Shown: piece by piece, positions 47,063 through 50,901 of the stretch | Layout: every line of letters starts with the position of its first letter | Numbering within the stretch: position 1 is the stretch's first letter | Source of the DNA: Fodinibius halophilus | GTDB lineage: Bacteria > Bacteroidota > Rhodothermia > Balneolales > Balneolaceae | Assembly (NCBI RefSeq): GCF_011059105.1 | Contig: NZ_JAALLS010000001.1 | Location: forward strand, 251,399 to 315,398 | Reading direction: 5' to 3' | Length of the DNA stretch: 64,000 nucleotides | The notes under the pieces: generated by a model | The model's input: only the letters and a program-made list of their open reading frames with translations | What the model was told of the DNA's origin: nothing | The model's database searches: none | Position numbers and translations under genes: made by a program

Positions 47063-48586
47063 TTAGAAAGGTGCTTCGCCACCACCGGGATCATGTCCCA
47101 TAGGGGGAGGACCACCACCATCATCGTCGGAACTACCGTTGCTCCCATTATTATCATTATTGGGCTCACCAAAAGGACCAGTATCAGCAGTAGTCAGGTT
47201 TTCAAAGCGGGCATAATCTTTAACGAAGTAAAGTGGTACACTTCCTACCGGACCATTACGTTGCTTTCCAATAATAAGTTCGGCGAGGCCTGCTGTAGAC
47301 TGTCCCTCCGGAGTTGTCTTAATGCCATAGTATTCAGGGCGATAGAGGAAACAAACAACATCGGCATCCTGCTCAATAGAACCGGACTCACGCAGGTCAC
47401 TTAGCTGAGGTCGTTTATCACCGCCTCTTTGTTCCACCGCACGACTCAGCTGAGATAATGCAACAACAGGCACATCAAGCTCTTTGGCCAGTGCTTTTAA
47501 ACCACGAGAGATAGCGGCTATTTCTTGTTCGCGAGTACCAAAATCTCCGGTAGCGGTCATCAGCTGCAGATAATCAACTACAATCATTCCGATATCGTGC
47601 TCACTTTTAAGACGCCGTGCCTTAGTTCGCAGCTCCATAATACTGAGACCGGGCGTATCATCAACAAAAATATCCGCAGTAAACAGACGTCCTGCAGCAT
47701 CAATAAGTCTTTTGAACTCTTCATCATCGAGCTGACCAGACCGTGCAGATTGAGCATTAATTCTGCCTTCCATCGTAAGCAAACGCTGTACCAGCGATTG
47801 GTTTGACATCTCAAGACTAAAGATCGCTACCTTCGTTTGTAGCTTTTCATCCTGGTGCATTGCAGCATTTCGGGCGGTAGTAAGTACATAAGCCGTTTTA
47901 CCCATCGAAGGTCTCGCCGCAATAATGATCATATCTCCCTTTTGCCATCCGGCCGTCATTTTATCGACATCCGTACCCGTAGGAACACCGGTAATACCGG
48001 CTTCTTTTCCCCGGATATCTTCTAAGTAGGAGAGGGTATCTTTAAGTACATCACCAATTGCTTGTGCCTGGGAACGCTGCTTGGAGTTTGCGAGGTCAAA
48101 AATACGTTGTTCTGCCTTATCTAATACATCGTAAGGATCTGTAGCACTATCATAAGCATCTTTAATGATTTCGGTACAGCCACGTATTAAATTTCGTTTT
48201 GTGGCCTTCTCAGCAATAATTTGGGCGTGATAATCGATGTTTGCAGCAGAACTCACCGAGCGAGTCAATTCTGATAAATATCCTGCGCCGCCACAGGTAT
48301 CCAGCAATTCTTTATCCCGAAGCTCGTTTTCAACCGTGAGCAAGTCGAGCGGGTTGTCGCGCTCGTAAAGGTCATGTAAGACTTCGAAAATGTGTTGGTG
48401 GGCGGGTTTATAAAAATCTTCTTTGGAAAGCATCTGCAGAGCTACCGTTGCCGCCTCATGTTCAATAAGCATAGAACCCAAGACCGCTTCTTCTACTTCT
48501 ACGGCCTGTGGCGGAACGCGCCCTTCCTGTTGTATAATACCTGAATCAGAATTGTTACTATAGTTTGATCCTTGTTGTGCTGCCAT
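47063..48586 (-). CDS. dnaB: Replicative DNA helicase DnaB
   Basis: A 507-residue hexameric 5'-3' helicase. The N-terminal domain has VEEAVLGSMLIEHEAATVAL (31-50). The RecA-like domain has Walker A GARPSMGKTA (about 225-234), Walker B IGMIVVDYLQLMTA and the DnaB signature ESGSIEQDADVVCFLYRPEYY (in pieces). The last about 40 residues are a low-complexity tail rich in Asp, Asn, Gly and Pro that ends in GGGEAPF; this acidic tail with a final Pro-Phe resembles the SSB C-terminal tip. It unwinds the chromosome ahead of the polymerase. It is a single gene, and no strong terminator is seen after it. Confidence 0.96.
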   Translation of the reverse strand: MAAQQGSNYSNNSDSGIIQQEGRVPPQAVEVEEAVLGSMLIEHEAATVALQMLSKEDFYKPAHQHIFEVLHDLYERDNPLDLLTVENELRDKELLDTCGGAGYLSELTRSVSSAANIDYHAQIIAEKATKRNLIRGCTEIIKDAYDSATDPYDVLDKAEQRIFDLANSKQRSQAQAIGDVLKDTLSYLEDIRGKEAGITGVPTGTDVDKMTAGWQKGDMIIIAARPSMGKTAYVLTTARNAAMHQDEKLQTKVAIFSLEMSNQSLVQRLLTMEGRINAQSARSGQLDDEEFKRLIDAAGRLFTADIFVDDTPGLSIMELRTKARRLKSEHDIGMIVVDYLQLMTATGDFGTREQEIAAISRGLKALAKELDVPVVALSQLSRAVEQRGGDKRPQLSDLRESGSIEQDADVVCFLYRPEYYGIKTTPEGQSTAGLAELIIGKQRNGPVGSVPLYFVKDYARFENLTTADTGPFGEPNNDNNGSNGSSDDDGGGPPPMGHDPGGGEAPF

Positions 48587-48696: not shown

Positions 48697-49563
48697 TTAC
48701 GGTTGGCCTCCGAGTTCGTCATATCGCTTCCGCAGAAGTTTAACATCTTCCCAGGTAGGGCGTTTCCACTTGGCATGTCGCAGTAACGCTGCGGGGTGAT
48801 AGGTAGCTAACAGTTCGTAGTTTTCGCGGAAATTATGAAATCGACCTCGCATACTGGAAAGCGAAGAGTTTTTGTCAAGCAATGTTTGTGCGGAAACCTT
48901 ACCGAGTGACAAAATGAGTTTAGGTTCAATAAGGTCGATCTGTTTTAGTAGAAAGGGGAGGCTACGCTGCCGTTCTTCAGGCTTGGGATTCCTATTATTA
49001 GGCGGCCGGTGTTTTAGAATATTAGCGATATATACATCTTCGCGTTCGAAATCTATGGCAGCTAATATTTTATTTAATAACTGTCCTGCTTTACCAACAA
49101 ACGGTTCTCCCAGTCGATCCTCTTCAGCCCCGGGCGCTTCACCAATTAACATCAGGTCGGCATTGGGGTTACCCACTCCAAATACGAGCTGGGTGCCTTC
49201 AAGATCTGTGCGAAGTATATCAGCTTTTTTACAAAGGGCTTCTAGTTCTTGTAAAGAATCACAAGCGTCTATGTAGTCTTGTACTGTCTTGGGTTTATCA
49301 TCCTCAGCAGGTTCTTGTGTTGACTCCTTTGGCTCTGCTGATGAGGAAGGCTGTGTTGTTGATCCGGTATTACTAGCTTCAGGCTCTTCTGCCGTATTTT
49401 GTTTCTTCTCTTGTTCGTAAGTCGTATCAGCCGGCTGTTTGGTATCAATATTCTTATCGGCTGAGGAGTCCATACCCAGCGAGAATTCTCCATATACCTC
49501 GCGCTCCCGTTCTATAAAGGATATGATATTCTCGATAAGTTCTTCTGGAGTTGAGTCAGCCAT
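48697..49563 (-). CDS. Uracil-DNA glycosylase, family 4-like, without the Fe-S cysteines
   Basis: A 288-residue protein. Residues 30-95 are an acidic, Ser/Thr/Pro/Gln-rich linker. The glycosylase domain (about 105-285) has [20 protein letters not shown] (141-160) and HPAALLR (256-262), the two active-site motifs of family 4 UDG, plus [21 protein letters not shown]. In the family the four cysteines of a [4Fe-4S] cluster stand in CxxC, KCRPP and a later C. Here there are only two Cys in the whole protein (101 and 111); position 185 is His and 201 is Ser. It removes uracil from DNA if active. It lies 3 bases after mtaB on the minus strand. Confidence 0.88.
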
Positions 49564-49566
49564 AGA

Positions 49567-50901
49567 TTACCCGACGAGTTCTGCAATTACGTTTTGTTCT
49601 TCTTTTGCTTCCGGGGTTAGCTCACCGATAAGGTACCCATCTTTGGAGCGAGCTCCCAAGCGCACGGGTAAAATCCGGTTTTCATATTGGGGATTATAAG
49701 GGATGCCAACCCGAACATAATTATCAGTCCAGCCCAACATAGCCCCATTGTGGTCAGCTCCTTCAAAAAGGACCGGGCGCACTTCATCTTTGAAAGAGGT
49801 ATCAAAATCAAAACGTTTCTTTTCAGACAGGCGTCGCAATTTATGGGTACGTTCTTTCCGGACGCTGTTTTGGACATTAGGTTCAATATCCAGGGCATGG
49901 GTATTTGGACGTTCGGAATAGGTAAACACATGCAGATAGGAAACCGGCAGATCCGCGATAAAGTCAAAAGATTCTTGAAACAGTTCCTCGGTTTCCCCGG
50001 GGTGCCCGGTTATAACATCGACGCCAATGGCAGCATCGGGCATCAGGTCTTTTATTAGTTCCACACGTTCACGATAAAGCCCTGACTGGTAACGACGGCG
50101 CATCAACGCCAGCATTTTATCACTCCCGCTCTGAAGCGGCATATGGAAGTGAGGCTGAATTTTATCGGATTCTGCAGTGAAATGTATAATATCTTCATGC
50201 ATCAAGTTGGGTTCAACAGAAGAAAAACGGATACGTTCAAGCCCGTCAACCTGATCTAGTTCTTGTAACAGCATAAAGAAGTTTTCATCAGTTCCACGCC
50301 CGTAGTCACCTGCATTTACACCGGTTACTACTACTTCTTTGAATCCTTCTTCAACAAGAAGTTCAGCATTTTTGATAACCGATGAGATTTCGGGACTTCT
50401 GCTTTCGCCCCGGGCCATTGGGATGGTACAAAAGGAACAGTTATAGCTGCAACCATCCTGTACTTTCAGAAAAGCGCGTGTGCGGTCATCAGCAGAAAAA
50501 GCATTATGAAAATCTACTGCTTCATTAACGTCAGAGTTATAGACTATTGGATCGGTACGCTTTTCAAAATCATCAAAAAGTTCCAGGAGCTTAAATTTGT
50601 TTTTAGCTCCTAATATGGCATCCACCCCGTCGATATCAGCAATTTCATCGGGTTCGAGCTGCGCATAGCAACCAATGACGGCAACAAAAGCGTCGTTGTT
50701 ACGACGCAGGGCTCGTCGAACGGTGCTTCGGCAGGTTGCATTCGCACTCTGTGTTACTGAGCAGGTATTTATGACGTAGATATCGGCTTCATTTTCAAAT
50801 TTCGTAATATCATAGCCTTCTTCTTCGAAATCACGCTGAATAGCCATGGTTTCGGAGTAGTTAAGCTTGCAGCCGAGTGTTTTAAAAGCAACTTTTTTCA
50901 T
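49567..50901 (-). CDS. mtaB: tRNA t6A37 C2-methylthiotransferase MtaB
   Basis: A 444-residue radical-SAM enzyme that adds a methylthio group to N6-threonylcarbamoyladenosine at position 37 of tRNA. The N-terminal UPF0004 domain has cysteines in TLGCKLNYSE, INTCSV and GCYAQLEP, which hold the auxiliary cluster. The radical-SAM motif CSYNCSFC lies near 146-153. A TRAM-like end with GADHNGAMLGWTDNYVRVGI closes the protein. The MtaB subgroup rather than MiaB or RimO is called from KTLGCKLNYSET. It leads the mtaB-UDG operon; a candidate promoter lies at 50967-50998. Confidence 0.93.
   Translation of the reverse strand: MKKVAFKTLGCKLNYSETMAIQRDFEEEGYDITKFENEADIYVINTCSVTQSANATCRSTVRRALRRNNDAFVAVIGCYAQLEPDEIADIDGVDAILGAKNKFKLLELFDDFEKRTDPIVYNSDVNEAVDFHNAFSADDRTRAFLKVQDGCSYNCSFCTIPMARGESRSPEISSVIKNAELLVEEGFKEVVVTGVNAGDYGRGTDENFFMLLQELDQVDGLERIRFSSVEPNLMHEDIIHFTAESDKIQPHFHMPLQSGSDKMLALMRRRYQSGLYRERVELIKDLMPDAAIGVDVITGHPGETEELFQESFDFIADLPVSYLHVFTYSERPNTHALDIEPNVQNSVRKERTHKLRRLSEKKRFDFDTSFKDEVRPVLFEGADHNGAMLGWTDNYVRVGIPYNPQYENRILPVRLGARSKDGYLIGELTPEAKEEQNVIAELVG

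Follow-up and report, generated by a model that had tools for sequence, protein, structure and literature searches.

Why DNA-repair enzymes carry Fe-S clusters is an open question, the cluster being viewed either as a structural staple or as a redox element; redox sensing of DNA damage at a distance is a hypothesis that counts family 4 uracil-DNA glycosylase (UDG) among its examples (extract of PMC9266487). The udg gene in the window, as we call the whole 64,000-nucleotide stretch of Fodinibius halophilus DNA analysed here, raises this question, as its product combines the motifs of family 4 with the absence of all four cluster cysteines. Is the protein a family 4 enzyme that has lost its cluster, does it still work, and what would hold it together in place of the iron? 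Full-text searches of the open-access literature, judged by titles and abstracts, brought up no paper recognised as describing a family 4 UDG without its cluster. The features discussed below are collected in Table 1.

Table 1. Positions in the window of udg, of the residues discussed in the text and of the two neighbouring genes.
Feature	Position	Strand	Basis and remarks
udg gene, iron-free (inferred) family-4-type uracil-DNA glycosylase	48697..49563	-	ORF, ATG start, 288 aa
N-terminal helix, residues 6-24	49492..49548	-	predicted (structure model)
Linker, residues 25-92, probably disordered	49288..49491	-	largely low confidence; pLDDT <50 at 31-60 and 66-71
UDG catalytic domain, residues 93-286	48706..49287	-	extent of PDB matches; model
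Ala114, column of cluster ligand 1 (TTUDGA Cys13)	49222..49224	-	multiple alignment
Leu117, column of cluster ligand 2 (TTUDGA Cys16)	49213..49215	-	multiple alignment
Asp120	49204..49206	-	in 80/80 distinct iron-free vs 0/70 Fe-S homologues
His185, column of cluster ligand 3	49009..49011	-	alignment; Rhodothermales: Ser or Thr
Ser201, column of cluster ligand 4	48961..48963	-	alignment; Rhodothermales: His
Motif A GEAPG, residues 141-145 (TTUDGA E41, G42)	49129..49143	-	alignment; longer string GEAPGAEED
Asn181, uracil-binding Asn (TTUDGA N80)	49021..49023	-	alignment; role from extract of PMC5387724
Asn190, motif 3 Asn (TTUDGA N89), within former cluster-anchored loop	48994..48996	-	alignment; role from extract of PMC5387724
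Motif B HPAALLR, residues 256-262 (TTUDGA H155)	48778..48798	-	alignment
mtaB, immediately upstream of udg	49567..50901	-	TIGR01579, 412.6 bits; 3 bases between mtaB stop and udg start
dnaB replicative helicase, downstream of udg	47063..48586	-	TIGR00665, 534.4 bits; adjacency conserved in class

The window protein matches PF03167 (120.6 bits, residues 128-274) and scores 187.5 bits against the family 4 UDG profile TIGR00758, for which the curated cut-off is 125.3 bits. It remains under the cut-off of the UdgX profile TIGR03914 (130.3 and 189.95 bits, respectively) and, in the NCBIfam search, under that of the archaeal UDG profile; it is not among the matches of the family 1 UNG profile TIGR00628 up to E 1, and that profile has no match in the genome of the window (G000). 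In phmmer, the T. thermophilus family 4 enzyme is the top-scoring solved relative, and the predicted fold is closest to the family 4 structure 1ui1 (Z 29.1, rmsd 1.2 over 181 residues), as compared with Z 20.6 for family 5 (2d3y) and Z 15.1 for MUG. The core of the model is confident, with pLDDT block means mostly of 90-98; its least confident block, residues 111-120, which holds Asp120, has means of 81 and 88 in two models. The family 4 motifs GE(A/G)PG and HPA, as defined in an extract of PMC10359453, are both present, and the four cysteines that belong to the [4Fe-4S] definition of the family are absent, for which reason we place the protein among iron-free derivatives of this lineage and not among the [4Fe-4S] members of family 4. 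The existence of an iron-free branch inside family 4, proposed in an earlier note on this DNA, is supported by the TIGR00758 score, the fold Z-score and the nesting of the clade among Fe-S family 4 proteins (see below). Derivation from a different, originally cluster-free UDG family, the outcome that the note had named as its refutation, is not supported by profile, fold or tree.

Comparison with characterised groups leads to the same placement. The fold, GE(A/G)PG, Asn181, Asn190, the His-Pro of motif B and the loop sequence RPPxNRxPxxxE are common to the window protein and family 4 UDGa (TTUDGA 1ui0/1ui1, T. maritima TM0511 and S. tokodaii 4zbx), whereas the four cluster cysteines of family 4 UDGa are all missing in the window protein, which has a new Asp120 and a His/Ser pair. 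UdgX (M. smegmatis), the next nearest PDB group in both sequence and fold, likewise has a His at the third ligand column, with Cys at the other three (the aligned chain is a mutant). Family 5 UDGb, likewise an Fe-S family, shares the superfamily fold (T. thermophilus 2d3y). The window protein has neither the UdgX signature, GEQPG plus the KRRIH loop with its cross-linking His, nor the family 5 motifs GLAPA/HPSPLN (all from the extract of PMC10359453); it reads GEAPG and [10 protein letters not shown] where UdgX has the former, and GEAPG and HPAALLR where family 5 has the latter. Clusterless MutY is a similar case, in that an Fe-S DNA glycosylase family has cysteine-free branches (extract of PMC11078426, citing a 2016 FEBS J paper), but MutY is a helix-hairpin-helix glycosylase (extract of PMC9266487), whereas the window protein has the alpha/beta UDG fold.

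In both the phmmer alignment and the multiple alignment, the four TTUDGA cysteines fall on Ala114, Leu117, His185 and Ser201. The earlier note had counted three replaced cysteines: its placement of His185 and Ser201 on ligand columns 3 and 4 stands, and the number replaced is four. Its reading of CKKA as the CxxC is out of register, the CxxC cysteines of TTUDGA aligning with Ala114 and Leu117 and not with C111-KK-A114. Cys111 lies three residues before the true ligand 1 column, at a position that is Ile in 54 of the 64 four-cysteine homologues; together with Cys101 it makes up the complement of two cysteines that the note had correctly given for the whole protein. A long N-terminal arm had also been thought to mark the iron-free branch. 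The two iron-free groups have medians of 89 and 92 residues ahead of the core and the 64 four-cysteine relatives a median of 68, the ranges overlap, and the N-terminal regions compared show similar helix-like starts in the Fe-S relatives; these observations rule out the arm as a hallmark of the branch.

Within the linker, a DLFG motif (e.g. L046, L053 and L076) is found in 17/37 Rhodothermales, 1/44 Balneolales and 6/64 CCCC rows. The motif presumably resembles a clamp-binding peptide.

The loss of the cysteines extends across the lineage. Of 58 genomes drawn as relatives, 55 have a homologue of the window protein, as do 140 of 145 genomes drawn from the class, the window's own genome being part of both draws; the 140 include four with decayed copies (G063, G065, G073 and G071). 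Matches were absent from five class genomes, of which G015 and G033 contain a relic, G008 has an mtaB cut off at the end of the contig stretch analysed, and G121 and G149 yielded only a distant mtaB paralogue. Among the 84 aligned class loci (window included), 79 have no cysteine at the four ligand columns and an intact active site, three are CCCC and two are decayed (L065 and L084), so that the loss is lineage-wide, the point for which the earlier note had proposed a tree. The three four-cysteine loci (L079, L080 and L161) all belong to family f6; L079 and L080 are placed outside the iron-free clade in the quick tree, and L161 is a distant paralogue, family-5-like by its GLAPG in our reading. 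Apart from family f6, no other cysteine state at the ligand columns was found among the class loci. The iron-free loci read x-x-His-Ser in 43 Balneolales (window included) and x-x-Ser/Thr-His in the 36 remaining. This lineage-wide conservation rules out chance or sequencing error as the cause of the missing cysteines.

The names of the two groups derive from two named records, L086 for Balneolaceae (identical in protein to L022) and L087 for Rhodothermales; the scan of named genomes with single-sequence patterns gave 3 loci, and that the whole second iron-free group is Rhodothermales is our reading of the tree. The counts given below refer to 80 distinct iron-free proteins, namely the 79 class loci and the named Ser-His record L087, picked by their letters at sites 3 and 4, and to 70 Fe-S homologues; L065, L084, L161, three PDB stretches, L086 and the window-gene copies L001 and L003 are outside both sets. 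The count over the 84 class loci is independent of this choice by letters. The loci in which ligand residues were read come from a single phylum, with L088 in addition, and from two scans of viral sequences.

Across the phylum, 300 of 394 genomes match TIGR00758, 281 of them above the cut-off. The 68 homologues read outside the class comprise 62 with four cysteines and six with Ser at the third site. The KSRPP relatives (L140-L142, L148, L149 and L155), which have Ser at the third ligand and keep the other three cysteines, possibly have altered clusters.

A wholesale loss of Fe-S repair enzymes was considered and rejected: in the window genome, MutY (L245) keeps C-x6-C-x2-C-x5-C, and Nth keeps four cysteines with another spacing. 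The usual cysteine spacing of endonuclease III is C-x6-C-x2-C-x5-C, and the C-terminal cysteines of Balneolales endonuclease III (Nth; L244 and L255-L283) read C-x12-C-x6-C-x-C in 29/29 copies.

When the ligand columns are left out, the iron-free proteins group into a single clade in both the careful tree (101 rows, 99/87) and the quick tree (131 rows, SH-aLRT 89), the former being the latter minus 30 rows, and the clade is nested among Fe-S family 4 proteins. Within it, Balneolales (100/99) and Rhodothermales (100/97) are separated in the 101-row tree. The simplest reading of the single clade is one cluster loss, and the common Asp120 agrees with this. Relatives with Ser at site 3 occupy two other places in the quick tree, a scatter that suggests parallel cases rather than direct intermediates. 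Horizontal gene replacement is unlikely, because the gene occupies the same slot before dnaB as its Fe-S orthologues. Among loci with a udg hit, udg lies directly before dnaB at 38/38 same-class loci (outside the order) and at 44/67 same-phylum loci, counts in which misses are not absences because the flanks are short; the adjacency would fit a link to replication. On these comparisons, the window protein is quite probably the chromosomal UDG of the Balneolales and Rhodothermales, derived from a [4Fe-4S] family 4 ancestor and no longer binding the cluster.

The former ligand sites have been refilled in a regular manner. None of the 80 distinct iron-free proteins has Cys at site 1 or 2, and 78 of them have Leu, Ile or Val at the latter. 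Sites 3 and 4 read His-Ser in 43, Ser-His in 34 and Thr-His in 3, such that a His is always paired with Ser or Thr, the two residues trading places between the two bacterial orders. In addition, Asp120 is present in 44/44 Balneolales rows (the duplicate L086 included) and 37/37 Rhodothermales rows, as against 0/64 CCCC and 0/6 CCSC rows. The side chains at sites 3 and 4 should be close to each other, because both sites ligate one cluster in the Fe-S homologues; the His/Ser exchange represents one switch between two clades and is no statistical proof of contact. These residues suggest that a protein-only hydrogen-bond clamp, composed of Asp120 and the His/Ser at sites 3 and 4, could stand in for the cluster.

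The same residues might instead bind a single metal ion (e.g. zinc), through Asp120, the His of site 3 or 4 and, in Balneolales, Cys111, in which case the enzyme would be Fe-S-free and not metal-free. The invariance of Asp120, the one His at site 3 or 4 in 80/80 proteins and the presence of Cys111 in 44/44 Balneolales rows would all suit such a site, but the Cys111 column is Val, Leu, Ala or Phe in 37/37 Rhodothermales rows, and eight iron-free proteins have no core cysteine at all, so that no common further ligand is evident; we regard a bound metal as unlikely.

The active-site motifs, which the earlier note had described as intact, are confirmed in the ORF as GEAPGAEED and HPAALLR. TTUDGA E41, G42, E47, F54, N80, N89 and H155, whose catalytic and pocket roles are described in the extract of PMC5387724, correspond to E142, A143, E148, F155, N181, N190 and H256 of the window protein, respectively. 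A143, E148, F155, N181, N190 and H256 are invariant in 80/80 distinct iron-free proteins, and E142 is kept in 79/80; in the 70 Fe-S homologues, the only one of these seven positions to vary is 143, with Ala in 62 and Gly in 8. In the loop, R186, R191, P193 and E197 are likewise kept in 80/80 distinct iron-free proteins. The dN/dS values of five intact pairs range from 0.075 to 0.221, a sixth pair being saturated, and the sequences thereby show purifying selection on the intact iron-free gene copies.

Full-length family 1 UNG (TIGR00628 above cut-off) is present in only 3 of the 145 class genomes, all from family f8 (G063, G065 and G073). In these three the udg copy is decayed: motif A is lost, as is the His of motif B in one and its Pro in two. 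The TIGR00628 search of the 145 class genomes found no full-length UNG beside an intact udg copy. The presence of UNG together with a decayed udg in f8 is what a swap of one working UDG for another would look like, and because full-length UNG occurs only in genomes with a decayed copy, the iron-free udg probably encodes the working uracil-repair enzyme, though a dispensable one. The exchange holds one way only, as udg is decayed without any UNG in G071, G015 and G033. The G071 copy reads GGAPG and KFRPS; G015 and G033 retain, in the slot from mtaB to dnaB, a relic that lacks motif A, and neither genome has any PF03167 match, which indicates that the uracil glycosylase function is dispensable.

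The decayed copies (L249:780-1496 (-), L250:2828-3433 (+), L285, L286, L290 and L065) come from genus g5, family f8 and genome G071, and those in g5 and G071 still lie between mtaB and dnaB. Their dN/dS is 0.302 for G015/G033, 0.136, 0.144 and 0.245 for the f8 pairs (the first two with dS >2.5) and 0.319 for G071 versus an intact relative. These copies may be fading, or may have kept another role.

Two further observations concern the glycosylase content of single genomes. The window's genome encodes a second, divergent PF03167 protein (L002, contig C17 of G000, a 238 aa frame), and given L002 the iron-free udg may not be its sole uracil glycosylase. In G096 (contig C69), only UNG fragments were found (L092 and L093, one with a stop codon), and a match to the iron-free enzyme is also present.

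A protein that binds uracil-DNA or acts as a scaffold beside DnaB without cutting, its catalytic motifs being inherited and unused, would account for the three lineages in which motifs are altered or lost and the frame stays open (dN/dS 0.14-0.32), a pattern that hints at a second role other than catalysis. Outside the decayed copies, however, the catalytic residues are kept in 80/80 proteins, one Glu142 change aside, and full-length UNG is found only where catalytic residues are lost; we consider a purely non-catalytic function improbable.

Among viral homologues, the best 80 loci of the first scan comprise 74 with four cysteines and 6 with His at site 3, and 0/80 are cluster-free. In the second, seeded with iron-free proteins, the best 80 loci comprise 64 CCCC, 2 CCHC and 14 others, 33 of the 80 proteins being also in the first scan. 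The 14 others resolve into six CCHC misaligned at the CxxC, L361 with a CxxC on inspection, and seven cluster-free proteins (L316, L318, L329, L344, L347, L348 and L367), which have no cluster set and an intact GEAPG, with other cysteines in some frames. In these seven, the Asp120 column has no Asp in the alignment; L367 would have one by ungapped counting. The cluster thus seems to have been lost more than once, with different substitutes. By eye, L344, L348 and L367 are each part of a longer frame, in which the glycosylase may be fused to a polymerase or exonuclease-like part.

That the cluster is still bound in the iron-free proteins via non-cysteine ligands (His, Ser or Asp) is very improbable, for although site 3 His occurs with three Cys in 6 of the best 80 viral proteins of the first scan and also in UdgX, and Ser with three Cys in six relatives, all four cysteines are here gone at once and the Leu, Ile or Val of site 2 (78/80) cannot bind iron.

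The iron-free enzyme would flip uracil out of the DNA and cut the glycosidic bond as in family 4, whose members excise uracil from single- and double-stranded DNA, with His256 stabilising the leaving uracil, Asn181 reading the uracil, Phe155 stacking on it and Asn190 positioning the water. In Fe-S enzymes the cluster clamps the loop [18 protein letters not shown] via two cysteines; here the loop keeps its conserved sequence and would probably be held by protein contacts of Asp120 with the His/Ser pair that now fills ligand sites 3 and 4, situated over a mostly small residue at site 1 and a mostly hydrophobic one at site 2. We infer the absence of iron, the enzymatic activity and the Asp-His-Ser clamp of the iron-free enzymes from comparative sequence evidence. 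A fuller history, which we put forward tentatively as plausible rather than probable, would consist of one loss in an ancestor of Balneolales and Rhodothermales, a protein-only Asp-His-Ser clamp on the same DNA-facing loop, a later His-Ser/Ser-His swap, and independent losses in phages with other replacements.

Mutational work on related enzymes is described in an extract of PMC5295032. In a family 5 enzyme from Sulfolobus, mutating the cluster or removing the N-terminus makes the protein less active and less thermostable, and activity is not abolished; in the authors' view the cluster has a stabilising role, above all for the loop that two of the cysteines anchor. The same extract says that cysteine mutants of family 4 lose activity only partly.

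Overall, the window protein appears to belong to an iron-free, apparently functional, lineage-wide derivative of family 4 with a candidate protein-only replacement of the cluster, and a family 4 annotation by TIGR00758 does not imply iron. A lineage that apparently runs uracil repair on an orthologous, catalytically intact, cluster-free enzyme would be a natural control experiment on the role of the cluster. If the history of a single loss followed by a protein clamp is true, the cluster would be an exchangeable structural staple, rather than a device for redox chemistry or charge transport on which the search for uracil depends.
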